From Methylosinus sp. H3A (lineage in GTDB: Bacteria > Pseudomonadota > Alphaproteobacteria > Rhizobiales > Beijerinckiaceae), in the NCBI RefSeq assembly GCF_015709455.1, contig NZ_JADNQW010000005.1, positions 1,488,001 to 1,552,000 on the forward strand: a DNA stretch of 64,000 bases, read 5' to 3'. The notes beneath the pieces are model-generated. The model ran no database searches, had not been told where the DNA came from, and saw only the letters and a program-made list of their open reading frames with translations. Shown piece after piece: positions 9,411 to 25,300 of this stretch; the first letter of the stretch is position 1; every line of letters begins with the position of its first letter. Both the position numbers and the translations under genes were made by a program.

Positions 9411-9440
9411 TCTGCGAGAACACCACACAGCATATGGTTC

Positions 9441-9448
9441 TTGTAGAC
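9441..9448 (+). promoter_or_regulatory. TTGTAGAC motif upstream of the encapsulin gene (candidate Rrf2 half-site)
   Basis: The octamer TTGTAGAC lies in the AT-rich region before the shell gene, next to a possible -10 box TATAGT (9450-9455). The same octamer forms the right arm of the palindrome in front of the rrf2 gene (12951-12958) and occurs upstream of the 13.7-kb operon (13544-13551). Confidence 0.45.
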
Positions 9449-9488
9449 GTATAGTAAGTGAATAAATAAACGCATGTATTTGAAAGTA

Positions 9489-9502
9489 GTAGAATTTTCT
9501 AC
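9489..9502. promoter_or_regulatory. Palindrome GTAGAATTTTCTAC in the encapsulin upstream region
   Basis: A perfect 14-base palindrome (GTAGAAT/ATTCTAC as arms read on the two strands) in an otherwise AT-rich stretch. Its halves resemble those of the rrf2 operator but in the opposite order (GTAGA..TCTAC against TCTAC..GTAGA). It is a plausible binding site for a second regulator, such as the upstream XRE/cupin protein. Confidence 0.4.
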
Positions 9503-9663
9503 ATTTAATACTATTGATTTCCTGGGGGGCGGTCTGTAGTTATTGCTCGCGGTTCGGATTCGTCCGCCGCGCTTTTTTCGATGACGGCCGACGTTCATCG
9601 GCGTCGCGTGGCGAGAGCTTCGCGGACGCCGGGCGTTTCGTTCAACCGCCCGAGGAATAACCC

Positions 9664-10611
9664 ATGACCACCGAACCCGAAGTCCGGCGGACGCTGAGCG
9701 AATCTGCGGCTCGCCAGCTCGCCAATGCGACCAAGACCAGAGCGCAGTGGTCGGGCATCACGCCGCGCTGGCTCGTGTCCTTTCTGCCCTGGACGCCCGT
9801 CGAGGCCGGCATCTACCGGCTGAACCGCGTCAAGGAGGAGGGCGCCCTCACCGACGCCGACGTGACTTGCAGCCCGGCCCGCGACCGCGACGCCGATCTG
9901 CCGGAGACCTTCGTCGATTACGAGGATCATCCGCGCGAATATTCGATGAATGCGGTCACGACCGTGCTCGACGTCCAGACCCGCGTCTCCGATCTCTACA
10001 GCCATCCTTACGATCAGATCCAGGAGCAGGTCCGCCTGCTCACGGAGAAGGTCAAGGAGAAGCAGGAGAGCGAGCTCATCAACAACGCCGAATACGGCCT
10101 GCTCGCCAACGCCCATCCGTCCATGAAGATCAGGACGCGGACGGGCGCGCCGACGCCGGACGATCTCGACGAGCTCATCGCCAAGGTCTGGAAGGAGCCG
10201 GCTTTCTTCCTCGCGCATCCGCGCGCCATCGCGGCCTTCGGGCGCGAATGCACCCGTCGCGGCGTGCCGCCGCCGACGGTCACTCTGTTCGGCTCGCCCT
10301 TCATCACCTGGCGCGGCCTGCCGCTGGTGCCCAGCGACAAGCTGTTCATCGACGAGAACGGCAAGACCAATATTCTGCTGCTGCGCACGGGCGAGAAGAA
10401 GCAGGGCGTGATCGGCCTGTTCCAGCCGGGCATTCCCGGTGAGGTGGCGCCGAGCCTTTCGGTGCGCTTCATGGGCATCAACCGCAAGGCCATCGCCTCC
10501 TATCTCATCTCGCTCTATTGCTCGGCCGCCGTGCTGACGCATGACGCGCTCGGCGTGCTCGAGGGCGTCGATGTGGGCAAGTTCCACGATTACGGCGACA
10601 AATACGTCTGA
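9664..10611 (+). CDS. Family 2A encapsulin nanocompartment shell protein (SrpI/MmpI-like)
   Basis: This is an HK97-fold shell protein that self-assembles into a closed protein cage. The 315-residue sequence has the family hallmarks near the N-terminus: SESAARQLANATKTRAQW, then ITPRWLVSFLPWTPVEAGIYRLNR (about residues 13-54), and the conserved core around DLYSHPYDQIQEQVRLLTE and IKTRTG-like loop (here MKIRTRTGAPTPDDLD). No cyclic-nucleotide-binding insert is present, so it is type 2A rather than 2B. GAGGA precedes the ATG at a good distance. The next gene encodes the matching cysteine desulfurase cargo, which is the known partner of 2A shells. Family members are linked to sulfur starvation and elemental sulfur storage. 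Confidence 0.93.
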   Translation: MTTEPEVRRTLSESAARQLANATKTRAQWSGITPRWLVSFLPWTPVEAGIYRLNRVKEEGALTDADVTCSPARDRDADLPETFVDYEDHPREYSMNAVTTVLDVQTRVSDLYSHPYDQIQEQVRLLTEKVKEKQESELINNAEYGLLANAHPSMKIRTRTGAPTPDDLDELIAKVWKEPAFFLAHPRAIAAFGRECTRRGVPPPTVTLFGSPFITWRGLPLVPSDKLFIDENGKTNILLLRTGEKKQGVIGLFQPGIPGEVAPSLSVRFMGINRKAIASYLISLYCSAAVLTHDALGVLEGVDVGKFHDYGDKYV

Positions 10612-10631
10612 TCCTTCGGCCCAGAGCCGCT

Positions 10632-10667
10632 CGCGCCGGCGGAGATTCGCCGCCGGCGCGCCTTTTC
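10632..10667 (+). terminator. Terminator-like hairpin between encapsulin shell and cargo genes
   Basis: Perfect 11-bp stem CGCGCCGGCGG (10632-10642) / CCGCCGGCGCG (10650-10660), loop of seven bases, then CCTTTTCT. It lies inside the 81-base gap between the shell and cargo genes. As there is no clear new promoter before the cargo gene, partial termination here would give more shell than cargo mRNA, as a nanocompartment with a many-subunit shell requires. Confidence 0.7.
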
Positions 10668-10692
10668 TAAAAATATGTGAGAGAGAGCGATC

Positions 10693-12888
10693 ATGTCATC
10701 TGCGCCCTCCAATTCCGCGGCCTTCGGCGCAACCGCGCCGGACGCGCCCTCCGAGGAGACGCTGACGCGCCATGCGGCGCCGGCCTTTCCCGATCCGGCC
10801 ATGATCGCGCGCCTCGCCAACGCTTTTTTCCAGGCCTCGCCGCAGGCTTCCGCCAATGACTCGCCGGCGACGCTCTCTCCCGGCGCGCCCATCGTGCCGC
10901 CGACGCAGCCCGAGCCGCCCGCGCCCTCCGTCGTCACCAGCGTCGCGCCCTATGCGCCCGCGCGCCCGCCCTTGGGGCCGCCAGACGTTCCGCCGACGAC
11001 GATTCCCTCCATCGCGCCGACTCCCAATCTCTCGGCTCCGTCGGCGCCCGTCGGCCTGCAGCCGGCGGTTCCGCCCTATGGACTCTCGGATGTTCCGCAG
11101 CCGGGCGCCTCGGCCGGCGCTTTCGACCCCGGCAGCCCTGCCGCGGCGGCGATCGATTATTCCGCCATTCCCAATTCGCTGGCGCAATATGGCGGCGCCG
11201 CGCCCGTGCAGGCGCCGGCGCCCTATGGCGGCTATGATGCGGACGCCGTTCCGGGCGGCGTGAAGGCCGCGCCGGTCGACAATCTCTATTTCCTGCGCGA
11301 GCGCGCGGCGCCGGGCTCGGTTCCGTCCGACCCGTCGCTCTCGCTCGTCGATCGCTATGACATCGACGCCGCGCCGCAGACAACGGCGGCCGCGCCCGAG
11401 AGCTTCGCCTATTCCGGCCCCTCGGAAGCCGATCCGCATCGGCTCTCCGACGCTCTCGCGCTGGGGACGCCCAATGTCGCCCTGCCGGAAATCTCCGGCC
11501 AGGAGCGCAGCTTCGCGCCCGGCGCAGCCGGTCCCGCGGCGACGGATTCGCTCTATTTCCTCGACCGCGCCGGCGCCGTCCCCGCCGCGCCTTCGGCGGC
11601 TCCGCAAGAGCCGCAGGGTTTTGCGCCCCAGCTCGCCGCCAGCGCGCCGGCGAGCAGAGCCGCCTTCGACCCTTATGCGGTGAAGCGCGACTTCCCCATT
11701 CTGCAACAGCAGGTGCATGGCAAGCCGCTGATCTGGCTTGACAATGCGGCCACGACGCAAAAGCCGCAGGCCGTCATCGACCGTCTCGCGCATTTCTACG
11801 AATATGAGAACTCCAACATCCATCGCGCCGCCCATGCGCTGGCGGCGCGCTCGACCGACGCCTATGAGGCCGCGCGCGAAAAAGTTCGCCGCTTCCTGAA
11901 GGCGCCGTCGATCAAGGACATCATCTTCGTGCGCGGCGCGACCGAGGCGATCAATCTCGTCGCCCAGGCCTGGGGCCGCCGCAATGTGCAGGCCGGCGAC
12001 GAGATCATCGTCTCTTGGTTGGAGCACCATGCCAATATCGTGCCCTGGCAGCAGCTCTGCGCCGAGAAGGGCGCGCGGTTGCGCGTCGCGCCGGTGGACG
12101 ATCGCGGCCAGATCATCCTCGAGGAATATGAGAAGCTGCTGAATCCCAAGACGCGAATCGTCTCGGTGACGCAGGTCTCCAATGCGCTCGGCACGGTGAC
12201 GCCGGTGCGCGAGATCACGGCGATGGCGCATCGCCATGGCGCGCGCGTGCTGATCGACGGCGCGCAATCGGTCTCGCATATGCCGGTCGACGTTCAGTCG
12301 ATCGACTGCGACTTCTTCGTCTTTTCCGGCCATAAAGTCTTCGGCCCGACGGGAATCGGCGTCGTCTATGGCAAGGACGAGGTTCTCGCCGACATGCCGC
12401 CCTGGCAGGGCGGCGGCAATATGATCGCCGACGTCACCTTCGAGAAGACGATCTATCAAGGCCCGCCCGAGCGCTTCGAGGCCGGCACGGGAAACATCGC
12501 TGACGCCGTCGGCCTCGGCGCCGCGCTCGATTACGTCGAGTCGATCGGCATGGAGGTGATCGCCCGTTACGAGCACGATCTCCTCCTCTACGCCACCGAG
12601 AAGATGCGGATCGTGCCGGGCCTCACCTTCATCGGCACGGCGGCGGAGAAGGCGAGCGTGCTCTCCTTCGTGCTCGACGGCCATCGCACCGAGGATGTCG
12701 GCAAGGCGCTGGACCGCGAGGGCATAGCCGTGCGCGCCGGCCATCATTGCGCGCAGCCGATTTTGCGCCGCTTCGGCCTCGAGGCGACCGTGCGGCCGTC
12801 GCTCGCCTTCTATAATACATGCGCCGATGTCGATGCGCTGGTCGCCGCGCTCTTGCGCCTGCAGAGCGGACGCGCCGGCTTTTTCTGA
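10693..12888 (+). CDS. Encapsulated SufS-like cysteine desulfurase with N-terminal cargo-loading region
   Basis: PLP enzyme that takes sulfur from L-cysteine as a persulfide, giving alanine. The 731 residues split in two. Residues 1-325 are Pro/Ala-rich and probably disordered, with a short amphipathic helix (residues 32-47) and two copies of a D-x-L-Y-F-L-x-R motif (196-203 and 285-292). Residues 326-731 are a complete group II (SufS-type) desulfurase: LDNAATTQKP (349-358), the PLP-lysine in SGHKVFGPTG (Lys548), and the catalytic cysteine in RAGHHCAQP (Cys686). The long N-terminal extension is the hallmark of Family 2A encapsulin cargo. Directly follows the shell gene. Confidence 0.94.
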   Translation: MSSAPSNSAAFGATAPDAPSEETLTRHAAPAFPDPAMIARLANAFFQASPQASANDSPATLSPGAPIVPPTQPEPPAPSVVTSVAPYAPARPPLGPPDVPPTTIPSIAPTPNLSAPSAPVGLQPAVPPYGLSDVPQPGASAGAFDPGSPAAAAIDYSAIPNSLAQYGGAAPVQAPAPYGGYDADAVPGGVKAAPVDNLYFLRERAAPGSVPSDPSLSLVDRYDIDAAPQTTAAAPESFAYSGPSEADPHRLSDALALGTPNVALPEISGQERSFAPGAAGPAATDSLYFLDRAGAVPAAPSAAPQEPQGFAPQLAASAPASRAAFDPYAVKRDFPILQQQVHGKPLIWLDNAATTQKPQAVIDRLAHFYEYENSNIHRAAHALAARSTDAYEAAREKVRRFLKAPSIKDIIFVRGATEAINLVAQAWGRRNVQAGDEIIVSWLEHHANIVPWQQLCAEKGARLRVAPVDDRGQIILEEYEKLLNPKTRIVSVTQVSNALGTVTPVREITAMAHRHGARVLIDGAQSVSHMPVDVQSIDCDFFVFSGHKVFGPTGIGVVYGKDEVLADMPPWQGGGNMIADVTFEKTIYQGPPERFEAGTGNIADAVGLGAALDYVESIGMEVIARYEHDLLLYATEKMRIVPGLTFIGTAAEKASVLSFVLDGHRTEDVGKALDREGIAVRAGHHCAQPILRRFGLEATVRPSLAFYNTCADVDALVAALLRLQSGRAGFF

Positions 12889-12914
12889 GAGCTGGATAAA
12901 CTCCACCGTCTTTA

Positions 12915-12943
12915 TTGACTTCCCGCGCCGCCGCCAATAGTCT
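12915..12943 (+). promoter_or_regulatory. Promoter of the rrf2-family gene
   Basis: TTGACT (12915-12920) and TAGTCT (12938-12943) are spaced 17 bases apart, with the start codon 27 bases downstream. The -10 box overlaps the left arm of the palindromic operator, a repressor-type layout. Confidence 0.6.
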
Positions 12944-12958
12944 ACCGTTTTTGTAGAC
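12940..12958. promoter_or_regulatory. Palindromic operator (GTCTAC-N7-GTAGAC)
   Basis: Perfect 6-bp inverted repeat with a seven-base spacer, overlapping the -10 region and the expected start of transcription of the rrf2 gene. Rrf2-type repressors bind palindromes of about this size, often autoregulating. The right half TTGTAGAC recurs at two other promoters in the locus. Confidence 0.65.
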
Positions 12959-12969
12959 GGGGTGGCGCG

Positions 12970-13413
12970 GTGCTGACGAAGAAGGGCAAATACGGCATCA
13001 AAGCCATGACCTATCTGGCGCGATTCGAGCCGGGCCGCACCGTGCCGGTCCAGGAGATCGCGACCACACAGCGCATACCGAAGAAATTTCTCGATGCGAT
13101 TCTCTGCGAATTGCGCAATCTCGGCTATGTGAGCTCGAAAATGGGCAAGGGCGGCGGCTATACGCTCGCCCGCCCCGCCGAGACGATCTCCGTCGGCAAT
13201 ATCATTCGCGCGCTCGACGGTCCGTTGGCGCCGCTCCCTTGCGCCAGCAAGACGCGCTATCAGCCCTGCGACGATTGCGTCGACGTGGAAAAATGCGCCG
13301 TGCGTCTCGTGATGCAGGATGCGCAGCGCGCGCTGTCGGGCGTCCTCGACAATTGCTCGCTCGCCCATGTGCGCGATCTCGCCGAGCAAGTCGCGCTCTG
13401 CTACGAAATTTGA
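12970..13413 (+). CDS. Rrf2-family transcriptional regulator with a four-cysteine cluster
   Basis: A 147-residue winged-helix regulator of the Rrf2 family (IscR, CymR, NsrR, RirA). The N-terminus MLTKKGKYGIKAMTYLAR and the wing MGKGGGYTLARPAETISVGNIIRALDGPLAPLPCAS are typical. The start is GTG at 12970. The C-terminal half has Cys91, Cys100, Cys103 and Cys109 (C-x8-C-x2-C-x5-C), suited to hold an Fe-S cluster or act as a thiol switch, so it may sense iron-sulfur or cysteine status. It has its own promoter with a palindromic operator, so autoregulation is likely. It follows the cysteine desulfurase by 81 bases. Confidence 0.92.
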   Translation: MLTKKGKYGIKAMTYLARFEPGRTVPVQEIATTQRIPKKFLDAILCELRNLGYVSSKMGKGGGYTLARPAETISVGNIIRALDGPLAPLPCASKTRYQPCDDCVDVEKCAVRLVMQDAQRALSGVLDNCSLAHVRDLAEQVALCYEI

Positions 13414-13533: not shown

Positions 13534-13565
13534 TTGATCTTCTTTGTAGACTTAATCAATATAGT
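13534..13565 (+). promoter_or_regulatory. Promoter region with TTTGTAGAC motif before the periplasmic redox operon
   Basis: TTGATC (13534-13539) could be a -35 box; TCAATA (13556-13561, spacer 16) or TATAGT (13560-13565, spacer 20) could be the -10. Between them lies TTTGTAGAC (13543-13551), shared with the rrf2 operator. TTGAT (13534-13538) and ATCAA (13555-13559) form an inverted pair around it. The leader to the first start codon is about 120 bases. Confidence 0.45.
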
Positions 13566-13686: not shown

Positions 13687-16017
13687 ATGACGAAGACCTT
13701 CAAAAGATCCGTGATCGCAATGATGTTGAGCGCCTCCGCGGCGGCTCTCGCGATCGCCGAAGAACAAAAGGCGCCGACCGCCGCTGTCGAATCGCCGCGC
13801 GCGAGCAAGCCGCACTGGGCGTGGCAGCCGGTCTATCAGCCCTTCGCGCCCGCTGTGCAGAAGAAGGATTGGTCGCATTCGTCCTTCGACGCTTTCGTGC
13901 TGTCGAAGATCGAGGCGCGCGGGCTGGCTCCCTCGCCGGAAGCCGATCGCGCCACTTTCATCCGCCGCGCGACGCTGGACGCCTGGGGTCTCATTCCCAC
14001 TCCCGACGAGGTCGCCGCCTTCGAGGGCGATCGAAGCCCGGATGCTTATGAGAAGCTCATCGATCGTCTGCTCGCCTCGCCGCGCTACGGCGAGCGTCAG
14101 GCGCGCTTTTGGCTCGATCTCGCGCGCTACGCCGACAGCACCGGCTTCCAGAACGACAATACGCGGCCGAACATGTTCCGGTATCGCGATTACGTGATCA
14201 AGTCGTTCAGCGAGGACAAGCCCTATTCCCAGTTCATCCGCGAGCAGCTCGCGGCGGACGAGATCGCGCCGGGCAATCAGGATCTGCTGGTCGCGACCGG
14301 CTTCCTCGCCGGCTATCCGGACAACAGCAACTCGCGCGATCTGGTGCAGCGCAAATATCAGATCACGACGGATATGGTCGACACTGTCGGCCAGGCGGTC
14401 CTCGGCACGACGGTCGGCTGCGCGCGCTGCCACAATCACAAGACCGATAAATTCACGCAGAAGGACTATTTCTCGCTGCAGGCCTTCTTCGCCAACACCG
14501 CCTTCGACGAGAAGGCGCCCGCCAAGAAGGGCGAAGTCGAGGCCAATTTCGAGAAAGACCAGGCCGCCTATAACGAGGCGACCAAGGCGATTCGCGTGCG
14601 ACAGAAGGAGATCGTCGACTCGGTCCGCGAGGCGGCGCTCAAATATCACAAAGAGCGCTATCTGACCGATAGCCGCGATTCGATCTTCAAGCCGAAGGAT
14701 CAGTGGAACGCGCTGGACCGCTGGGTCAATCACCGGCTCGTGGCCGTGACCGACGACAATGCGCTCGCCGCCTTCCTGCGCTACGCCGCCGACGACAAGA
14801 GCGCGCCGGAGCACAGCGAAGAGATCGTCAAAAAGGCGGAGGAGTATCAAAAGCTCACCCAGGAGCTCCGCAAGTTCCAGGCGCAGCGCCCGAGCAAAGG
14901 CTCGCTGACCTTCACCGCCGCCACCGAGCTCGGCCATAGCGACGCGCCGCCCACGCATATTCTCTTCGTCGGCAATCACGAGAAGCCGCTCGACGAAGTG
15001 CAGCCCGCCTTCCCGGAGGGTCTGACGAGCGAGCTTCCCGACATCAAGCCGACGGCGACCTCCTCCGGCCGCCGCACGGCGCTCGCCGACTGGCTGGTGA
15101 GCGAGAAGAATCCGCTCACCGCGCGCGTCTTCGTCAACCGCGTGTGGAACCAATATTTCGGCAAGGGTATCGTCGGCACGGTCAGCGATTTCGGCAAGGC
15201 CGGCGACAAGCCGACCAATCAGGAGCTGCTCGACCATCTCGCCTTCACTTTCGTGAAGGACGGCTGGAGCGTGAAGAATCTGCATCGTTCCGTTCTGCTC
15301 TCGGCGACCTATCGCCAGTCGTCCGATTATCGGGAGGATGTCGCCAAGGCCGATCCGGAGAACAAGCTGCTCGCCGTCTTCCCGCGCAAGCGTCTCGAGG
15401 CGGAGGAGATTCGCGATTCGATCCTGGTCGCGTCCGGCAAGCTGAACGAGCATATCGGCGGGCCGAGCGTGTTTCCTCCCATTCCCGCAAATCTCATCGG
15501 CGGCGGCAATTTCAACACCGATCCGGCCTGGACGACGTCGAAGGATCCGCAGGACTATACACGCCGCAGCCTCTACATCTTCACGCGGCGCAGCCTGCCC
15601 TATCCGCTGCTCGAAACTTTCGACATGGCGAATCCGCAGCAGATTCACAGCAAGCGCGATGTGACGACGACGCCGCTGCAGGCGCTGACGCTCTACAACA
15701 GCGATCTCATCTTCCAATGGTCGCAGGCGCTCGCGGGCCGCGTGATCGAGGAGGCCGGCGACAATGAAGCCGCGCAGCTCGATCGGCTCTATCTCGTGCT
15801 GTTCGGCCGCAAGCCGAGCGAGCAGGAGGTCAAGGCGCTGCACGCCTTCCTCGACCAGCATCAAAAGACGATCGCCGCCAAGGCGGAGAACGGCAAGCTC
15901 TCGATCGCCGTGCCGGTGACCGCCAAGGCGCATTTCGTCGATCCGCTGCGCGCCTCGGCCTTTGTCGATCTCGTGCATACGGTCGTGAACAGCAACGACT
16001 TCGTCTACCGCTTCTGA
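13687..16017 (+). CDS. DUF1549/DUF1553 domain-containing exported protein with a CxxCH site
   Basis: A 776-residue protein with a signal peptide (MTKTFKRSVIAMMLSASAAA..., to about residue 24). The N-terminal half is DUF1549: DWSHSSFDAFVLSKIEARGL, RRATLDAWGLIPTP, and GTTVGCARCHNHKTDKFTQKDY with a haem-type CxxCH (Cys245, Cys248, His249). The C-terminal half is DUF1553: RTALADWLVSEKNPLTARVFVNRVW and RRSLYIFTRRSLPYPLLETFDM. These domains are most abundant in Planctomycetes, and their reaction is not established. It is followed by a DUF1501 gene, its usual partner, and starts an eight-gene operon. Confidence 0.88.
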   Translation: MTKTFKRSVIAMMLSASAAALAIAEEQKAPTAAVESPRASKPHWAWQPVYQPFAPAVQKKDWSHSSFDAFVLSKIEARGLAPSPEADRATFIRRATLDAWGLIPTPDEVAAFEGDRSPDAYEKLIDRLLASPRYGERQARFWLDLARYADSTGFQNDNTRPNMFRYRDYVIKSFSEDKPYSQFIREQLAADEIAPGNQDLLVATGFLAGYPDNSNSRDLVQRKYQITTDMVDTVGQAVLGTTVGCARCHNHKTDKFTQKDYFSLQAFFANTAFDEKAPAKKGEVEANFEKDQAAYNEATKAIRVRQKEIVDSVREAALKYHKERYLTDSRDSIFKPKDQWNALDRWVNHRLVAVTDDNALAAFLRYAADDKSAPEHSEEIVKKAEEYQKLTQELRKFQAQRPSKGSLTFTAATELGHSDAPPTHILFVGNHEKPLDEVQPAFPEGLTSELPDIKPTATSSGRRTALADWLVSEKNPLTARVFVNRVWNQYFGKGIVGTVSDFGKAGDKPTNQELLDHLAFTFVKDGWSVKNLHRSVLLSATYRQSSDYREDVAKADPENKLLAVFPRKRLEAEEIRDSILVASGKLNEHIGGPSVFPPIPANLIGGGNFNTDPAWTTSKDPQDYTRRSLYIFTRRSLPYPLLETFDMANPQQIHSKRDVTTTPLQALTLYNSDLIFQWSQALAGRVIEEAGDNEAAQLDRLYLVLFGRKPSEQEVKALHAFLDQHQKTIAAKAENGKLSIAVPVTAKAHFVDPLRASAFVDLVHTVVNSNDFVYRF

Positions 16018-16044
16018 ACAATCTGAACCGAGGGGAGCAGGCAT

Positions 16045-17502
16045 ATGCTCATCAAGACATCGCGTCGCGAATGGCTGCGTAGCGCGGCCTATGGAGTGGG
16101 TGGTTTCGCCGTCGGCGGCATGATGCCGGGCGGCGGCTGGTTCGGCGCGCCGCAGGCCAACGCCGCGGCCTTCGTCGATCCTCTGGCGGCCAAGCAGCCG
16201 CATTTTCCGGCCAAGGTGAAATCGGTTATCTGGATACATTTGGACGGCGCGCCGAGCACGCTGGATCTCTACGATCACAAGCCCGAGCTCGAGCGTCTCG
16301 CCGGCCAGGACATTCCCGGCTCCTTCCTCGAGGGCATCAAGACCTCGACGCAGGGCGGCGTCGGCAAGCTCTTCGTCTCGAACAAGCGCAGTTGGAAGCA
16401 GTATGGCCAGAGCGGCGCCTGGTTCTCCGATCTGCTGCCCAATCTCGCGCAGCAAGCCGACAAGCTGACCTTCGTCAAATCGAGCGTCACCGTCGGCGCC
16501 ACGCACGACATCTCGATTTTGAAGCTCAACACCGGCGATCTCAGCCCCGGTCGCCCGTCGCTCGGCGCCTGGGTCGCCTATGCGCTCGGCTCGGCCAATC
16601 CCGATCTGCCGCCCTATGTCGTGCTCTATGGCGGCCAGCGCGAGCCGCGCGCGGGCTCGGTCAATTGGAGCTCGGGCTTCCTGCCGGCGGTCTATCAGGG
16701 CACGGCGTTCCGTCCCGGCGCGCAGCCGATCCTGCATCAGGCGCCGCCGGAACTGGTCGGCCTGCAGCAGCAGCGCGAGAGCCTCGATCTGTTGCATCAG
16801 CTCAACGATATCCGCTCCAATACTCGGCCCGAGGACAGCGAACTCGCGGCGCGCACCAATTCCTATGATCTCGCCTATCGCATGGAGGCGACCGCGCCAG
16901 AGGCCGTCGATCTGTCGAAGGAGACCGAGGCGACCAAGGCGCTCTACGGCCTCGACGACGAAGCGACGCGCGACATGGGCACGGTGCTGCTGCGCGCTCG
17001 CCGCCTCGTCGAGCGCAATGTGCGCTTCGTGCATGTGGTGACGGGACCGATCGCGGGCCTCGGCCAGGGCGACGACGCCAGCTGGGACGCGCACCGTCAG
17101 CTCGAGCGCAATCACAGCGCCCATGCGCGCGCGATCGACAAGCCGGTCGCCGGCCTGCTCGCCGATCTCCAGTCGCGCGGCCTTCTCGACGACACGCTCA
17201 TCGTGTGGGCGTCGGAATTCGGCCGCACGCCTTACGGCCAGAGCGGCGACGGTCGCGACCATAACCCCTGGGGCTATACGCAATGGCTCGCCGGCGGCGG
17301 CCTCAAGCACGGCCTCACCTATGGCCGCACCGACGAGATCGGCCTCAAGACCGTCGAGAATCCGGTCGACACCTATGACCTGCACGCGACCGTGCTCCAG
17401 CTCCTCGGCCTCGATCACCTCAAGACGATCTATCTGCGCGCCGGCCGCGCCGAGCGTCCGACGGTCGTCTATGGCAAGGTCGTGAACGACATTCTCGCCT
17501 GA
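16045..17502 (+). CDS. DUF1501 (sulfatase/alkaline-phosphatase-fold) exported protein
   Basis: A 485-residue protein with a Tat-type signal (TSRREWLRSAAYGVGGFAVGG), so it is probably exported folded, perhaps with a metal. The DUF1501 signature is clear: VIWIHLDGAPSTLDLYD near the N-terminus, THDISILKLNTG, and the C-terminal block WDAHRQLERNHSAHARAIDK ... VWASEFGRTP ... GRDHNPWGYTQWLAGGG. The fold is related to sulfatases and phosphopentomutases, but no substrate is established. It follows the DUF1549/DUF1553 gene by 27 bases, a pairing seen repeatedly in Planctomycetes and some Proteobacteria. Confidence 0.88.
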   Translation: MLIKTSRREWLRSAAYGVGGFAVGGMMPGGGWFGAPQANAAAFVDPLAAKQPHFPAKVKSVIWIHLDGAPSTLDLYDHKPELERLAGQDIPGSFLEGIKTSTQGGVGKLFVSNKRSWKQYGQSGAWFSDLLPNLAQQADKLTFVKSSVTVGATHDISILKLNTGDLSPGRPSLGAWVAYALGSANPDLPPYVVLYGGQREPRAGSVNWSSGFLPAVYQGTAFRPGAQPILHQAPPELVGLQQQRESLDLLHQLNDIRSNTRPEDSELAARTNSYDLAYRMEATAPEAVDLSKETEATKALYGLDDEATRDMGTVLLRARRLVERNVRFVHVVTGPIAGLGQGDDASWDAHRQLERNHSAHARAIDKPVAGLLADLQSRGLLDDTLIVWASEFGRTPYGQSGDGRDHNPWGYTQWLAGGGLKHGLTYGRTDEIGLKTVENPVDTYDLHATVLQLLGLDHLKTIYLRAGRAERPTVVYGKVVNDILA

Positions 17503-17576: not shown

Positions 17577-17640
17577 AACGGCGGACTGCGCCCGCCGAAT
17601 GCACATTCGAAACCTCGAGCAGGATTGCAAGACAAGCGTC

Positions 17641-18054
17641 ATGAGCCGCACGCCCGCATATCGAAATTTCTTCACGCGTTCCGCCCTATGCGCCGTCCTG
17701 CTCGCCACTCCGGCGCTGGCCGCGCTGGACCTGCGCGATTACGACGACGATCTGATGCGCGATCTCGAAAAGACGATCAAATATTTCGAGCCGGACATCA
17801 CCGCGCAAAACTCGCAGGCCGCCAAGGAGGATGCGGAAATTCTGCTCGACGGCTTCCGTTATACGGAGGACTATTTCGCCAAGAGAGGCAAGGATGACGC
17901 CGTGGCGATCTCCCGCGACGGCTCGCGCCTCATCACCGACGTCGTTCAGAAAGTCGAAAAAGGCGAGTTCGACGCCGCGGCCGCCTCCGCGCGCGAGGCG
18001 ACGCAAGTCTGTAAAACCTGCCACGAGATCTACAAGCCCCGCCTCGCACGCTGA
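17641..18054 (+). CDS. Small periplasmic c-type cytochrome (cytochrome c'-like helix bundle)
   Basis: From the ATG at 17641 (MSRTPAYRNFFTRSALCAVLLATPALA) this is a 137-residue exported protein with a signal peptide ending around Ala28. The mature part is helical and the only haem motif, CKTCH (Cys124-His128), lies at the C-terminus, as in cytochrome c' and cytochrome b562-like bundles. An in-frame ATG at 17599 would extend it without a good signal. It probably carries electrons for the neighbouring periplasmic proteins. Haem attachment would use the Ccm system encoded at the left end. Confidence 0.8.
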   Translation: MSRTPAYRNFFTRSALCAVLLATPALAALDLRDYDDDLMRDLEKTIKYFEPDITAQNSQAAKEDAEILLDGFRYTEDYFAKRGKDDAVAISRDGSRLITDVVQKVEKGEFDAAAASAREATQVCKTCHEIYKPRLAR

Positions 18055-18071
18055 CCCCGAGGATACGAACG

Positions 18072-18962
18072 ATGACGCGTAAGACCGCAAACGAGTTCCC
18101 GCCCGGAATATTGAAGCTCTTCGATCTCTTCGTGCATGGCGACATCGACCGGCGCGGTTTCATCGACGGCGCCAAGAAATTCGCTGTCGGCGCCGCCGCG
18201 GCGACGGCCTTCCTCGAGGAGCTGCTGCCGCGCTTCGCCGAGGCGGAGGTGGTGAAGAAGGACGATCCGCGCATCGCCGGCAAGACGCTCGAGGTTCCCT
18301 CGCTCGACGGCAATGGAACGGTGAAGGGCTATTTCGTCCATCCCGCCAAGGTGGAAGGCAAATTGCCGACCGTGCTGGTCATTCACGAGAACCGTGGCCT
18401 CAATCCGCATATCGAAGATGTGGCCCGCCGTCTCGCCCTGGCCAATTTCGTCGTCTTCGCGCCGGACGCTCTGGCGCCGCTCGGCGGCTATCCCGGCGAC
18501 GAGGACAAGGCGCGCGAGCTTTTCCCCAAGCTCGATCAAGCCAAGACGCGCAATGATTTCATCGCCGCCTATGGCGCGCTGAAAACCTGCCCGATCGGCA
18601 ATGGCAAGGTCGGCGCGGTCGGCTTCTGCTATGGCGGCGGCGTGGTGAATTTCCTCGCCACCAAGCTCCCCGATCTCGCCGCTGGCGTTCCCTTCTATGG
18701 GGCGCAGCCGCCGGCCGAGGAGGTCGCAAAGATCAAAGCGTCGCTGCTCATCCAATACGCCGGCGTCGACGATCGCATCAACGCCGGCTGGCCGGCCTTT
18801 GAGGCGGCGCTGAAAGCGGCGCATGTCGATTATCAGGCCTTCGTCTATCCGGGCGTGCAGCACGGCTTCAACAATGACACGACGCCGCGTTTCGACGCCG
18901 CGGCCGCCGAGCTCGCCTGGGCGCGCACCGTCGACTTCTTCAACGCGCGTCTGCGCGCCTGA
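18072..18962 (+). CDS. Dienelactone hydrolase family protein, probably Tat-exported
   Basis: A 296-residue alpha/beta-hydrolase. The N-terminus DIDRRGFIDGAKKFAVGAAAATAF resembles a Tat signal preceded by a short cytoplasmic extension. The catalytic residues of dienelactone hydrolase are in place: Cys186 in GFCYGGG, Asp233 or Asp234 in YAGVDDRINAGW, His264 in PGVQHGFNND, and Glu106 in HENRG. Family members open lactone or ester rings. In this operon it suggests an organic ester or lactone as periplasmic substrate, which is an inference. 17 bases after the cytochrome gene. Confidence 0.88.
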   Translation: MTRKTANEFPPGILKLFDLFVHGDIDRRGFIDGAKKFAVGAAAATAFLEELLPRFAEAEVVKKDDPRIAGKTLEVPSLDGNGTVKGYFVHPAKVEGKLPTVLVIHENRGLNPHIEDVARRLALANFVVFAPDALAPLGGYPGDEDKARELFPKLDQAKTRNDFIAAYGALKTCPIGNGKVGAVGFCYGGGVVNFLATKLPDLAAGVPFYGAQPPAEEVAKIKASLLIQYAGVDDRINAGWPAFEAALKAAHVDYQAFVYPGVQHGFNNDTTPRFDAAAAELAWARTVDFFNARLRA

Positions 18963-18981
18963 GAACGGATAAGGAAAAGCC

Positions 18982-19542
18982 ATGAAAGTCTCGACGCTCT
19001 TCCTCGGCCTTGCGCTCGGCGCCGCCTCGACGGCGCTGTTCGCCGCCGGCGCTACGGCGCAGCAGGCCGCCGCGCCGGCCGCCCCTGCGGCGGCGCCCGT
19101 CACGCCGGCCAACGACCCGGCCTATACTTACAAAACCCTGCGCCTCAATCGCGCCGCCTTCGACGCGCTTCTGGCGAAGCCCGAAGATCTTCTGATTCTC
19201 GACATTCGCCGGCCAGACGAACTGACCAAGAATGGCGGCTTCCCAGTCTATCTGAGCATTCAGACGAAAGAGGTTCAGAAATCTCTCTCCTACATCCCGC
19301 GTGACCGGCTCATCGTCACAGTGTCCAATCGCGCGCATCGCGCCGGCGCGGTGGGCGATATTCTCGCAGGCCTCGGCTATCATGTCGTCGGCGCGATCGG
19401 CGTCCTCGATTATCAGGACGAAGGCGGAATTCTGACGAAGCTCGCGCCGCCGGCTCCTGCCGCCGCCGCGGCGAACAACGCTCCGACGTCCGGCGCTCCG
19501 GCTCCCGCCGCGGCCGTCGCGACGACCAATGGCGCGAAGTGA
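18982..19542 (+). CDS. Exported rhodanese-like protein lacking the catalytic cysteine
   Basis: A 186-residue protein with a signal peptide (to about Ala26), an Ala/Pro-rich linker, one rhodanese-like domain (about residues 55-150) and a low-complexity Ala/Pro tail. The domain keeps the early motif LLILDIRRPDEL and the late segment LGYHVVGAIGVLDYQDEGG, but the active loop reads VTVSNRAHRAG: serine 115 stands where sulfurtransferases have cysteine. It is therefore probably a binding or scaffold domain and not an active sulfurtransferase. Nineteen bases after the DLH gene and seven before the peroxiredoxin gene. Confidence 0.8.
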   Translation: MKVSTLFLGLALGAASTALFAAGATAQQAAAPAAPAAAPVTPANDPAYTYKTLRLNRAAFDALLAKPEDLLILDIRRPDELTKNGGFPVYLSIQTKEVQKSLSYIPRDRLIVTVSNRAHRAGAVGDILAGLGYHVVGAIGVLDYQDEGGILTKLAPPAPAAAAANNAPTSGAPAPAAAVATTNGAK

Positions 19543-19549
19543 GGCGAAC

Positions 19550-20113
19550 ATGCGTAAAGCTGCAATTCTCTCTGCTCTCTTGGCCGTTTTCGCGGCCGCT
19601 CCCGCCTCCGCGGCGTTGAAGACGGGCGCCGAGGCGCCCGATTTCAGCGCCCCCGCCGCGATCGGCGGAAAGGACTTCGTCTTCTCTCTGGCCGATGCGC
19701 TGAAGAAAGGGCCCGTCGTCCTCTACTTCTACCCCAAGTCCTTCACGCGCGGCTGCACCATAGAGGCGCATGAGTTCGCTGAGAATTACGATAATTTCTC
19801 CGCGGCCGGCGCCTCGCTGATCGGCGTCTCCGCCGATACGATCGAGACGCAGCGCGATTTCTCGACGAAGGAGTGTCGCGACAAATTCCCGGTGGCGGCG
19901 GACGCGAATCTCTCCGTCATCAACGCCTATGACGCCAAGCGCGATCGCCCGACGCAGAATGGCGACACCGTGTCGGACCGCGTCTCCTATGTGGTGACGC
20001 CGGACGGCAAAATCGGCTTGACCTATGTGAGCTCCGACCCGATCAAGCATGTCTCCGAGACGCTCCAATTCGTGCGGCAGTGGCAGGAGAGCCACAAGCC
20101 GGGGAAGATTTGA
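19550..20113 (+). CDS. Exported peroxiredoxin (AhpC/TSA, BCP-like)
   Basis: The ATG at 19550 (MRKAAILSALLAVFAAAPASA) gives a 187-residue protein with a signal peptide. The thioredoxin-fold peroxiredoxin core follows, with the peroxidatic cysteine Cys69 in FYPKSFTRGCT and a candidate resolving cysteine Cys109 in STKECRDKF, 40 residues on. It should reduce peroxides in the periplasm, using an unknown thiol donor. Its presence suggests that the operon's chemistry makes or meets H2O2 or organic peroxides. Seven bases after the rhodanese-like gene. Confidence 0.88.
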   Translation: MRKAAILSALLAVFAAAPASAALKTGAEAPDFSAPAAIGGKDFVFSLADALKKGPVVLYFYPKSFTRGCTIEAHEFAENYDNFSAAGASLIGVSADTIETQRDFSTKECRDKFPVAADANLSVINAYDAKRDRPTQNGDTVSDRVSYVVTPDGKIGLTYVSSDPIKHVSETLQFVRQWQESHKPGKI

Positions 20114-20148
20114 GCATCGCGTTCAACCTCAGCAATAAAGGGACCATT

Positions 20149-20643
20149 ATGAGTCTGTATTCGAAGCGCGCGCGCGCCCTTCTTTTCGGCGGAGCGCTCG
20201 CCGCGAGCTGCGTCGCCCTGGCCTCCGCCTATGCGCAGGCGCCGGGCCCCTCCCCGGCGAAAATCGCGGTCGAGAACCGCCGGGCGGAGTTCGTGCTCAT
20301 CGGCAATTTCTTCCGCTGGTTCGGCGCCGTCGCCAGGGGCAACGCCCCTTATGACGAGGCCGAGGCGACGAAGCGCGCCGCGCGCATCGCCTATCTCGCG
20401 GGCCTGCTGGACGAATCCTTCCCCGATATCTCCAATGTCGGCGAGCCGGACAGCAAGGCCAAGCCCGAAATCTGGAAAGAGAAGGCGGAGTTCGACAAGA
20501 AGCTCGTCAAATTCAAGGAAGACGCCCGCCTCTTCGCCGAGGCGATCGGGAAAGAGAAGAGCGCGACCGAGGGCTTCAAGACGGCGGTCGCGAATCTCGG
20601 CCAGGATTGCAAGGGCTGCCACGACTCTTACAAGGCGAAGTGA
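20149..20643 (+). CDS. Cytochrome c'-like periplasmic protein
   Basis: From the ATG at 20149 (MSLYSKRARALLFGGALAAS...) it is 164 residues, with a signal peptide cleaved near AYAQA. The mature protein is helical and ends in DCKGCHDSYKAK, so the single CxxCH (Cys154-His158) is at the extreme C-terminus as in cytochrome c'. Such proteins carry electrons or bind NO/CO. A frame opening at 20080 overlaps the peroxiredoxin gene and was rejected. It resembles the 17.6-kb cytochrome only in layout. Confidence 0.82.
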   Translation: MSLYSKRARALLFGGALAASCVALASAYAQAPGPSPAKIAVENRRAEFVLIGNFFRWFGAVARGNAPYDEAEATKRAARIAYLAGLLDESFPDISNVGEPDSKAKPEIWKEKAEFDKKLVKFKEDARLFAEAIGKEKSATEGFKTAVANLGQDCKGCHDSYKAK

Positions 20644-20664
20644 CGCCGGACGACGAGACGAACG

Positions 20665-21408
20665 ATGACGGTGATCGACAGGCCCCCCGAAACAAAGGCG
20701 GCGGCCGCGCAATCGAAAGACAGACGTCTGGTCTGGGATCTGCCGGTGCGGCTGTTCCATTGGTCGCTCGTCGTCTCGTTCATCGGCGCCTATGTGACCA
20801 ACAGGCTCGGCGTCGCCTGGTTCGACTGGCATGTCCGGTTCGGCTACGCCGTGCTCACACTCGTCGTTTTCCGCGTGCTATGGGGCCTGTTCGGCGCCAA
20901 GCACGCGCGTTTCGCGAGCTTTTTGCGGCATCCGCGCGAGGCGTCGCTCTATGCGCGGCGTCTTCTGCGCGGAGAGGCCCCTTTCTATGCCGGGCATAAT
21001 CCGCTCGGCGCGCTCATGGTCGTCGCCCTGCTCCTCGGCCTTTTGACGCAGGCGACGATGGGGCTGTTCTCGAATGATGAAATCTTCAATTTCGGGCCCT
21101 TTGCGGGGGCGGTGAGCAAGGAGACGAGCCTCCTGCTCACCTCGCTGCACAAGCGGGGGTTCTATGTGCTGGCGGCCGCCGTTTTCATTCACGTCGCCGC
21201 GGTGATCGCCTATGTGGTCGTGAAGCGCGAAAATCTCGTGCGCGCGATGGTCACCGGATATAAGCGCGCCGAGGCCGTCCATCCCGAGGACGAGATCACG
21301 ACGTCGCGTCTGCCGCTCGCGGCGACCTTGCTGCTCGTCGTCGCCATAGCGCTCGTCGCTTTGACCTCAATCGCTCCGGTGGCCAGCGCCGGCGGCGACG
21401 CATTTTGA
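20665..21408 (+). CDS. Cytochrome b561-type (Ni-hydrogenase b-subunit-like) membrane protein
   Basis: A 247-residue di-haem b-type membrane protein. It opens with VWDLPVRLFHWSLVVSFIGAYVTNR (His ligand region), then four main hydrophobic helices, a second histidine in WHVRFGYAVL and another in FIHVAAVIAYVVVKRENLVRAMVTG, the usual helix pattern. A further C-terminal hydrophobic stretch follows. It would link periplasmic cytochromes to the quinone pool. It is the last gene of the eight-gene operon, 21 bases after the cytochrome c' gene, and no terminator is obvious after it. Confidence 0.87.
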   Translation: MTVIDRPPETKAAAAQSKDRRLVWDLPVRLFHWSLVVSFIGAYVTNRLGVAWFDWHVRFGYAVLTLVVFRVLWGLFGAKHARFASFLRHPREASLYARRLLRGEAPFYAGHNPLGALMVVALLLGLLTQATMGLFSNDEIFNFGPFAGAVSKETSLLLTSLHKRGFYVLAAAVFIHVAAVIAYVVVKRENLVRAMVTGYKRAEAVHPEDEITTSRLPLAATLLLVVAIALVALTSIAPVASAGGDAF

Positions 21409-21506
21409 GGAGGCGCGCCGGTTCGCCGAGCTTGAGGGCGGCAGCCGGCTGGGCTACTTAAGAGCCATATTGCGCATTCGATCGTCTCCGCGCGTCGAGG
21501 CTCCTC

Positions 21507-22088
21507 ATGGCTCGCTCTATCGCACCGGCTATTTTCTTCCTTTTCACGCAGATTTCCGTCGTTTATGCGGTCGACCGGCCGAGCGCCCCCGCGGTCCGCG
21601 CGGCGGCGCCCGCCAAGCCGGCGGCCGCGCCTCCCTCGGGCGACGCCCCGCGCGTGTTCGGCGATTGGCAGCTGCGTTGCCTCGCCGGGAGCGCGCCACA
21701 ACCGGCGCGTCGCAACTGCGAAATTCTGCAATCCGTCCTCGTCAAGGACAAGAGTTCGACGATCGCCGAGATCGCCTTCGGCAAGCCCGACGCCAACGAC
21801 TCGATGGCGATGACGATCGTCGTGCCGGTCAATGTCGCTTTTCAGGCTGGTCCGCGCGTGACGACGAGCGACGTGGACACGCAACCCCTCGATCTCGTCT
21901 GGCGGCGTTGCGCCTCAGCCGGATGTTTCGCCAGCGCGGCCCTCGGCGACCAGACGCTCGCCCGTTGGCGCGCCTATGACGGCCTGGCGCGGATTGTTTT
22001 CAAAAGTGCGGCCGGTCAGGACGCCGTGCTGCCGGTGTCCTTCCGCGGGCTGGCGCAGGCGCTCGACGCGCTCGGGCGCGAGCGTTGA
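21507..22088 (+). CDS. Invasion-associated locus B (IalB) family protein
   Basis: A 193-residue exported protein with a short signal peptide (MARSIAPAIFFLFTQISVVYA), a Pro/Ala linker, then the IalB domain: RVFGDWQLRCLAGSAPQPARRNCEILQSV, VNVAFQAGPRV, LDLVWRRCASAGCFASAALGD. The paired cysteines are typical. IalB-like proteins are common in alphaproteobacterial periplasms, and their role outside Bartonella invasion is not known. It lies 98 bases after the cytochrome b gene and may be a separate unit. Confidence 0.85.
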   Translation: MARSIAPAIFFLFTQISVVYAVDRPSAPAVRAAAPAKPAAAPPSGDAPRVFGDWQLRCLAGSAPQPARRNCEILQSVLVKDKSSTIAEIAFGKPDANDSMAMTIVVPVNVAFQAGPRVTTSDVDTQPLDLVWRRCASAGCFASAALGDQTLARWRAYDGLARIVFKSAAGQDAVLPVSFRGLAQALDALGRER

Positions 22089-22356: not shown

Positions 22357-25300
22357 ATGATCCGTTCGTCCGATCGTCGCAACAATAGCGTCCCCACCCC
22401 GAGCTGTTCGCATTTTCTGACGAATGACGGTCATAGACGTGGCCTTCTTCTCGGCGTCTCGGCGATCAGCATCGCTCTTTCGGTCGGCCTGTCGCAGCCT
22501 GTGCTGGCGCAGCAGGCGGGCGGAGTCGGCGGCGGGCCGGGCGGCGGAGCGGGCGGAACGACGACGGACGCGGTCGGGACGGTCGGCGGCAATGCGAGCG
22601 CCGGACTCGGCGGCGGCGGCGGCGGCGGCCTTGGTTCGGCGGGCGGCGCGGGCGGCGGCGGCGTGGCCGCGGGCGGCGCGGGCGGCAATTCCGGGTTCGG
22701 CACTGATACTGCGGGAACTGCCGGAACGAACGGAGCCGCAAATCAGGGCGGCGGCGGTGGCGGCGGCGCCTTCACGGTCACCAATACATTCAACGTCTTC
22801 GCTCCCTTTGCGGGTAAGGCGGGCGGGGCCGGCGGCGCGGGCGGGGCGGGAGCCGGCTCGGGCGGCGGCGGCGGCGCAGGCGGCGGGCTGGCGCTCAAAT
22901 CCCTCCCGGCTGGCGGAGCCAGCACTGTCAGCGCGGGCGGCGCGGCCACCGGCGGCGCGGGCGGCGCGGGCGGCTCCGCCACTGCGGTCAGCGGCAATGG
23001 CGGCGCGGGCGGCGACGGCGGCGCCGGCTTGTTCACCACAGCCGCGGCGGGCGGCGGCGGCGCGAACAGCACCCTCACGGTCCAGGGTTCGATCACCGGC
23101 GGCGCGGGCGGCGCCGGCGGCAATGGCGGCACGGGATTCGGAGTCGGCGGCGCCGGCGGCAATGGCGGCGCGGGCTTCGCCGGCTCTAAATTCACGATCG
23201 ACAACTCCGGCGTGATCCAGGGCGGCGCGGGCGGCCTCGGCGGCGTTGGCGCTGGCGGGGCCGGCGTGAATGGCGCGGGCGGCGCCGGTATCCTCGGCAG
23301 CGATCTCACCATCAAGAACTCCGGCCAGATCATCGGGACCGGCGGGGCCAACGCCCTCACCCTCGCGGGCGGCGCTAATACTCTGACGACGACAGGCGCA
23401 GGCAAGCTGACCGGAAATATCGGCCTCGGCGGCGGCTTGTTGACCTTCGACCAGAACACGCCCGGCGCGGGCAATTCGGTCTCCTACGCCAACAACATCA
23501 CCGGCGCGGGCGCGATCACGGTCGACGCCGGCGTGAATTCGGTCACTCTTTCCGGCGCCAACAGCTATACGGGCGGCGCCACCATCAAGAGCGGCGCGCT
23601 GACGATCGGCTCCGTCGGGGCCATTGGCGCGGGCGACGTCAAATTCGTCGCGGGCGGCGCGACCGCCCCGATTCTCGACTCGACGGTCACCACGACTCTG
23701 ACCAATACGGTAAGCGTCGCGTCGGGCGTCTCCGCCACGATCGGCGCCGGCGCCGGAACCACTCTGACCATCGCCTCCGGCGTCAACTTCACCGGCGGCG
23801 CGGGAACGACGCTGCGTTTCGGATCGGCGACCGACGCGGGCGTGGTCGTTCTGGCGCCGGGCTCTGGGGTCATCAGCAACGCCGGCGCGCTGTCCGTGGA
23901 CGGCGGGACTCTGTCGCTGGGCAACCAGGCTTCCGCCATCGTCGTCGGCGCGCATCAGGGCGGCCTCAATGTCGGCAAGGATGCGGCGACCGCCGCGACG
24001 CTGGACGCCAATGGCCAGTCCTTCACCGCCAACAATCTGACCGGCTCGTCGAAAGGCGTCATCACCAACAGCGGCGCCGCCGCCACGGTCACGACCCGCA
24101 ACACTGTCGACACGGTCTATTCCGGCGTCATCAAGGACGGCGCCGGCAAGCTCTCGCTCGATGTGCAGGGGTCGGGCGGCACGACGCTGACGCTCGCCGG
24201 GCAGAACACTTATAGCGGAACGACCAATATTGCGGCCGGTCAGACGTTGAAGGCCGGCGCAGCCAATGTTTTCAGCCAGGCGAGCGAGACGACCATCAAG
24301 GGAACGCTGGACCTCGGCGGGGCCGCGCAGAACATCGACACCGTCAATCTCGCCAATGGCGCGATCCGTAGCGGCACGCTCACCAGCGTGAATGGCGTCT
24401 CCTCCATCGGCGGCGTGGTCCAGGACATAGGCGGCGGCGCCGGGCTGACCACGACCGCCGGCCTCACCAGCCTGAGGGGATCCAACGCCTACACGGGCGC
24501 GACGACGGTCAAGGATGGCAGCACGCTGCGGGTCGAGAGCGTCAACGGCTATAGTTTCGCGAGCGCGCTCGATGTCCGCGGCGGGGGCGTGTTCGACCTC
24601 GGCGGCTTCGGCGCCAAGATCGGGGCGCTCTCCGGCGCAGGCGTCATCACGAGCGGCGCGGCGGCGACGCTGAATCTCGCTCTTACCGGCGACGCCACAT
24701 GGGCCGGCGCAATTCAGGGCCCGATTTCGACGCAGATTTCCGGCGGCAAGACGCTGACTCTCACCGGCCAGAACATCTATTCGGGAACGACGCAGATCGC
24801 CGCCGCGACGGTCGTCGTGGGCGCCGGCGGCGCGATCGGCTCCGCCGCCAATAATGCGGGCGCGATCAATATAGACGCGGCCGGAGCGCTGACCATAAAG
24901 TCGGGCGGCTCCGTCAACACGGGCGCCAATAATCTCACCAACTTCGGCGCGGTCACCGTCGAAAAGGGCGGCCAGCTGACCGACGACCTCGTCAATTTCG
25001 GTACGGTGAACAACGCCGGCTTGGTGACGGCCAATCTCCAGAACAATGCGCCGGGCGTGGTGACCAATCAGGGCCCGGCCGGCGTCTGGCAGGGCAATGT
25101 CGTCGCCAATAGCGGCGCGATCGTCAATCAGGCGGGCGCCAATTGGATCGGCAATGTCAACGCCAACGCCGTCGGCGGGATCATCACCAATAAGGGCGTC
25201 TGGACCGGGAACGCCGCCAATAGCGGCGGAACGATCGACAACCAGAATAATTGGAACGGCAATGTCGTCAATGTCGCCGGCGTCGTCAGCAACAGCGGAA

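Follow-up and report, generated by a model that had tools for sequence, protein, structure and literature searches.

The window, that is the whole 64,000-nucleotide stretch of Methylosinus sp. H3A DNA analysed here, carries on its forward strand the shell gene of a Family 2A encapsulin (9664..10611), the gene of a cysteine desulfurase that would be its cargo (10693..12888) and the gene of an Rrf2-family transcriptional regulator (12970..13413), with operator-like sites in front of the first and the third of them. With considerable confidence, we read this arrangement as a Family 2A encapsulin operon with a caged desulfurase, accompanied by a regulator predicted to control itself and the shell-cargo promoter through a site that is common to cysE, the gene of serine acetyltransferase. 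Shell and cargo as such extend a known family in a routine way: 1281 operons of Family 2A with a desulfurase as cargo, of which 813 are in Proteobacteria, had already been counted in 2021 (PMC8346489, Nat Commun 2021). The less expected part is the neighbouring regulator gene, whose product appears, from common DNA sites, to control both the cage and a cysteine-making gene. As for the host, the first-pass annotation was right in calling it an alphaproteobacterium, and this can be narrowed: judged by its shell gene it is a Methylosinus-like methanotroph, the nearest named shells among the GTDB-contig matches listed being those of Methylosinus sp. Ce-a6 and Sm6, both 97% identical.

The shell protein (315 amino acids) scores 518 bits with the Family 2A model NF041162 (encap_f2a; cut-off 380) along the entire profile (1-295 of 295), and 353 bits with the SrpI-like family PF19307. 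In a profile search of its own genome it is the sole NF041162 match, and no classical Family 1 encapsulin (PF04454) was found there. The HK97 fold is predicted from homology to solved Family 2A shells (8t6r, 6x8m, which is SrpI, 9ksl, 8wol and 8won), all with E values of 2.3e-119 or less and the lowest at 1.4e-134. In particular, the MmpI encapsulins (PDB 8t6r, 9ksl, 8wol, 8won) align over nearly the whole chain with 401-451 bits, a comparison that concerns the shells only. The protein also exceeds the cut-off of the Family 2B model NF041163 (433.5 bits, cut-off 400), yet stays below its 2A score; the 2B match is to the HK97 part, its best stretch being confined to positions 208-449 of 450, whereas the 2A match is continuous. 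Unlike Family 2B shells, the window shell has, as far as its sequence goes, no insertion for binding cyclic nucleoside monophosphates (cNMP) in its E-loop, for which 315 amino acids leave no room, and it is thus a 2A and not a 2B protein. A relative is encoded in at least 536 of the 597 pattern-matched stretches listed from GTDB contigs, so that the shell-cargo pair is no chance occurrence, and 33 of the 149 sampled genomes of the GTDB family hold a shell above the cut-off. Eight of these 33 (G005, G008, G047, G049, G082, G083, G130 and G147) show a split match in two pieces, located in frames of 471-523 amino acids, as expected for Family 2B with its cNMP domain. Within the genus, 8 of the 10 sampled genomes carry a 2A shell and two of those (G149 and G150) a second one. 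The second shell-cargo pairs (L258 and L259) stand beside cysK and cysE, have shells 87-88% identical to that of the window and lack both an Rrf2 gene and an operator-like site.

The cargo gene follows on the same strand, with 81 bases between the two open reading frames, and encodes 731 amino acids that score 892 bits against the dedicated cargo model NF041166 (cut-off 800). The catalytic domain begins at about residue 325; it can be aligned to SufS structures from E. coli and scores 568 bits with the SufS model TIGR01979 over residues 329-723. Four of its residues align with the SufS catalytic set, namely His446 (EHHAN), Lys548 (FSGHK), Cys686 (RAGHHCAQP) and Arg701, which we take to have the same catalytic roles. 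The targeting region in front (residues 1-324) consists of 22.5% Ala, 18.2% Pro and 10.2% Ser and has no Cys; before residue 347 there is no Pfam match at E <= 0.01, and the best matches in the PDB begin with residue 318. Specifically, this region holds three matches to published loading motifs: IARLANAFF (RLANAFF at 40), which resembles LARLANEFFS, and NLYFLRE (YFLRE at 199) and SLYFLDR (YFLDR at 288), which both resemble the second, YYFLDG-like motif. A further gene of the SufS type is present in the genome, at C5:3742588; it reaches 599 bits against the cargo profile and so stays below its cut-off. Accordingly, the encapsulated desulfurase is an extra enzyme. The first-pass annotation had described a complete 315-residue shell, a SufS-type enzyme with all catalytic residues and a disordered N-terminal region of about 325 residues, and had assigned the pair to Family 2A. 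Its coordinates, 9664..12888, coincide with those of the two frames. The reading frame and the full-length profile match confirm the first; both models and the four aligned residues confirm the second; the third agrees with the missing Pfam match and the low-complexity make-up, disorder being judged from composition only. The profile search that it had proposed as a check placed both proteins above the curated cut-offs (NF041162 and NF041166), and the family assignment holds on these models, the solved SrpI and MmpI relatives and the published loading motifs.

A different origin of the shell gene had to be considered, since HK97 ancestry is common to phage capsids and encapsulins and the model for the phi X174 lysis protein was matched once, with 18 bits where the cut-off is 103. 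A phage capsid gene or prophage remnant taken for an encapsulin is nevertheless extremely improbable: the encapsulin model is far above its cut-off, a dedicated cargo model is matched as well and no phage gene occurs among the neighbours scanned. The phage reading was therefore discarded on the family-specific shell and cargo models.

A known counterpart is SrpI-CyD of Synechococcus elongatus PCC 7942 (PMC8049743; PDB 6x8m/6x8t), which likewise joins this shell family to an adjacent SufS-type desulfurase whose N-terminal targeting region carries LARLANEFFS- and YYFLDG-like motifs. The window cargo differs in its longer N-terminus (324 residues, 225 in CyD) and its two YFL-type motifs, and the system comes from an alphaproteobacterial methanotroph and has a linked Rrf2 regulator. 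For the cyanobacterium, the same study (eLife 2021) describes assembly, loading and a desulfurase about sevenfold more active when encapsulated. By analogy, the shell protein would assemble into an icosahedral cage and would capture the desulfurase via the long low-complexity N-terminus, as SrpI does with CyD. The caged enzyme would then take the sulfur off cysteine in the form of an enzyme-bound persulfide, and this sulfur would be released or held within the cage rather than handed to the housekeeping machinery. Extrapolating from other species, the cage may store elemental sulfur; a single sentence in PMC12407261 describes cysteine desulfurase encapsulins, and thereby these cargos, as involved in sulfur storage, and a literature search returned no title on Family 2A cages that store sulfur. 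An alternative destination is a dedicated acceptor, rhodanese- or SufE-like, which would use the sulfur for cofactor or iron-sulfur (Fe-S) synthesis instead of storage. Rhodaneses do figure among the enriched partners of Family 2A operons in the 2021 survey (PMC8346489), and a relative of the one queried occurs in 12 of the 80 related loci, these being the best 80 of a longer match list from GTDB contigs. The window itself has no match to that rhodanese: serine acetyltransferase and rhodanese genes are often enriched in Family 2A operons, though not required, and tblastn at 1e-5 (one query each, two for cysE) revealed no cysE, cysK or rhodanese relative in its entire length. Together with the description of these cargos as storage enzymes, this makes the dedicated acceptor rather unlikely.

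The regulator gene encodes 147 amino acids that match PF02082 with 131.5 bits and the Rrf2 superfamily model TIGR00738 with 114.5 bits (cut-off 73.3). Its solved relatives include IscR, CymR and NsrR; IscR and CymR structures (PDB 4hf0-4hf2, 3t8r, 2y75) belong to the same winged-helix family and match with 53-55 bits. Unlike these two proteins, it remains far below their equivalog cut-offs (72.7 of 207.55 bits for IscR, 70.8 of 195 for CymR) and has the cysteine spacing C-x8-C-x2-C-x5-C. As all 22 aligned rows, those of paralogues among them, keep the four cysteines (21 records, L045 and L155 being the same), the protein is probably an Fe-S or thiol sensor. Among the 80 related loci an Rrf2 gene is present in five besides the window: two of Methylosinus, one of Methylocystis, one in a metagenome-assembled genome (MAG) of Methylocystaceae and one in a MAG of Hyphomicrobiales. 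In the genus sample it adjoins a shell in all eight encapsulin-bearing genomes. The first-pass annotation had overlooked this regulator, the operator-like sites common to the promoters and the lack of the customary cysE and cysK neighbours.

To locate possible operators, a matrix was derived from sites that lie upstream of Rrf2 in six other loci, with the own genome excluded to avoid circularity, and the window was scanned on both strands. The three best places lie in the promoter regions of the system, all on the forward strand, the next-best place in the window reaching 13.5 bits. The best (12941..12960, TCTACCGTTTTTGTAGACGG, 28.8 bits) contains the inverted repeat GTCTAC-N7-GTAGAC (12940-12958), overlaps the inferred -10 box of the Rrf2 promoter (12938-12943) and has a counterpart at the same place in seven of seven loci. 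The third-best (12902..12921, 16.2 bits) overlaps the inferred -35 box TTGACT (12915-12920). Since these sites overlap the -35 and -10 boxes, both assigned by eye, the regulator probably represses its own gene. The second-best place (9431..9450, CATATGGTTCTTGTAGACGT, 17.0 bits) lies upstream of the shell gene, and its core TAGACGTATA is invariant in all seven Methylosinus-type loci. It is located upstream of the -35 box of the inferred shell promoter (9480..9509), which comprises the -35-like TTGAAA, the near-palindrome GTAGTAGAATTTTCTAC (9486-9502) lying inside it and an AT-rich -10 region; these boxes, too, were drawn by eye, and the block is largely conserved in the seven loci. In the alignment of the seven loci, each of the two leaders contains a conserved block, which resembles TTCTTRTAGACGTATA upstream of the shell and TCTAYNGTTTTTRTAGACG upstream of Rrf2. 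In dinucleotide-matched random AT-rich intergenic sequence, scores of 17 or more arise about 11 times per megabase (Mb) and strand, so that about 0.006 of them are expected in the 253-base shell leader. A further leader block before the shell, TTCGATGACGGCC-GACGTT..TC (9577-9604), is nearly invariant in the seven loci and might by eye form a small hairpin. An upstream reading frame at this place was rejected, as its ATG and frame are not kept between relatives (by eye).

The same order of sites recurs in the relatives. When each of the six other loci was scanned with a matrix built without it, the top site was in Rrf2's own promoter in six of six, as in the window, and the shell site came second in each, in L115 on a par with the second Rrf2 site. 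For the comparison of shell-upstream regions, L093 was dropped (its shell is cut by a contig end) and L211 was left out as a copy of L036; the best score then has a median of 20.2 in the 10 loci bearing Rrf2 versus 6.6 in the 76 without. Specifically, the seven Methylosinus-type loci score 17.0-24.6, L040 15.1 and L045 13.9. The exact 13-mer GTYYTTRTAGACG has 40 copies in the 10 genus genomes versus 16 for the reversed pattern, and it is found once each in the encapsulin-free G042 and G105. Two of its seven copies in the own genome are those of the shell and Rrf2 promoters and five fall within predicted genes. Motif matches outside the window at C5:1115245, C5:3264010, C5:694865, C5:2753950 and C5:3492105 were discarded for lying inside genes, as called by a simple composition-based caller.

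The site reappears before cysE. The closest cysE of the encapsulin-linked kind in the own genome lies 2.8 Mb along the same contig (C5:4328771, 62% identical). In the own cysE locus (L204), chosen for holding cysE and not for the motif, the best site is directly upstream of cysE and scores 16.5 bits with the six-locus matrix and 15.5 with a seven-site matrix. In all seven genus loci with a cysE at least 82% identical, the corresponding site is the top match of the locus (13.7-17.9 bits). Elsewhere, the gene commonly belongs to the cluster: 63 of the 80 related loci have a cysE relative and 21 a gene resembling cysteine synthase (tblastn, 1e-12), with 53 loci for cysE when clustering is used instead. 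In two loci, L038 of the Hyphomicrobiales MAG and L040 of Methylocystis, all five genes (cysK, cysE, shell, cargo and Rrf2) stand together, and this full set suggests that the window arrangement has lost cysK and cysE from the cluster.

Loci without a local Rrf2 provide a further comparison. A set with shell identity of at least 78%, its species being related to one another, gave 51 shell leaders and 44 cysE leaders. Seven of the 51 shell leaders reach 14 bits or more, versus a mean of 1.0 for column-permuted matrices, of which one in 300 reaches seven. Three of the 44 cysE leaders reach 18 bits or more, versus 0.04 for permuted matrices (none of 300) and none for the reversed matrix; two of the three are both from Labrys, and the third, in L039, is the site also counted for its shell. 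Depending on the threshold, permuted matrices do equally well in 1-4 of 300 cases for the shell leaders and in 0-8 of 300 for the cysE leaders.

From these observations, Rrf2 would bind TCTAYNGTTTTTRTAGACG-like sites and thereby control itself and the shell-cargo promoter, while the site common to cysE would tie cage production to cysteine or Fe-S status. That is, a cysteine- or Fe-S-responsive regulon is predicted to control the compartment, with a mixed outcome in the controls. The fuller proposal that the Methylosinus-type sulfur encapsulin is under a dedicated, autoregulated four-cysteine Rrf2 sensor, and that cysE left the operon and stayed in the regulon, has in our judgement an even chance of being correct. 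Several results weigh against the predicted regulon. In L038, which bears Rrf2, the best shell-upstream score is a poor 6.0 bits. Comparing the shell and Rrf2 upstream regions locus by locus gave a weak result: the common site was the best match in only four loci out of 10, and 10 of 60 shuffles did equally well in the window. As this comparison was unconvincing on its own, the leave-one-out matrix and the permuted-matrix controls were added. When two or three mismatches are allowed, the motifs are hardly or not commoner across the genome than reversed controls (51 vs 46; 30 vs 52), and the genome-wide pattern behind the latter pair was drawn after several sites were known, so that its ranking is no independent evidence. 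At thresholds of 14, 16 and 18 bits, the matrix matches 7, 3 and 2 of the 51 shell leaders without a local Rrf2, and its reversed form still matches 3, 2 and 1. The encapsulin-free G042 has the site in front of its cysE, and the site is missing from the cysE of G152 and G146 and from that of the second encapsulin loci in G149 and G150. Finally, an Rrf2 paralogue is present in all 10 genus genomes. This paralogue and the G042 site together indicate that the local Rrf2 is maybe not the only, or not the true, binder.

Consequently, a second interpretation was weighed, in which the encapsulin is of Family 2A and the Rrf2 gene is an unrelated neighbour, its sites being due to chance or to a general cysteine regulon of the paralogue. 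The own genome has two Rrf2 paralogues, at C5:4158218 (66% identity) and C5:410148 (55%), and the former shares the four cysteines, is preceded by related sites and has relatives in the remaining genomes of the genus; the site enrichment, moreover, extends to loci without a local Rrf2. The neighbours of the paralogues, a protein-L-isoaspartate methyltransferase-like gene (below cut-off), TolC, an Lrp-like gene and thiD, are without a sulfur theme. Against an unrelated neighbour speak the constant adjacency of Rrf2 and shell in the encapsulin genomes of the genus, even where, in L116 and L260, the PSCyt2/DUF1501 genes that otherwise follow were not found, and the position of the best site copy in Rrf2's own promoter, in the window as in the leave-one-out loci. 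We therefore consider the unrelated neighbour possible and somewhat doubtful.

If the dedicated sensor is real, it would be a transcriptional switch devoted to a Family 2A compartment. To our knowledge, induction of Family 2A sulfur compartments has been described mainly as the sulfate-starvation response of one cyanobacterium. The linked regulator and its defined candidate site would make this signal testable, with cysteine, O-acetylserine, Fe-S status or sulfide as candidates, in a methane-oxidiser genus that has named isolates, and cysteine supply is the theme suggested by the site common to cysE. The literature search, with most subscription journals outside its scope, returned no title reporting an Rrf2-regulated or a methanotroph encapsulin and no publication on Rrf2, cysteine and serine acetyltransferase in Alphaproteobacteria.

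Other features of the window touch this system less closely. An open reading frame of 2364 amino acids without a Pfam match at E <= 0.001 occupies 22357-29451, and no RNA element in the window matched Rfam at gathering thresholds. Directly downstream of Rrf2 (13687-17502) lie PSCyt2/PSD1 (DUF1549/DUF1553) and DUF1501 genes, which stand beside Rrf2 in six of the seven Methylosinus-type loci; this pair is typical of Planctomycetes. A weak operator-like site in front of them (13534..13552, forward strand) has one mismatch to the genome-wide pattern, which had been drawn with it in view, and does not rank among the top ten with the unbiased matrix. After DUF1501, a same-strand run (17599-22088) encodes a 151-amino-acid CKTCH protein, a dienelactone hydrolase-like protein, a 186-amino-acid frame without a Pfam match, an AhpC/TSA protein, cytochrome c', cytochrome b561 and an IalB-like protein.

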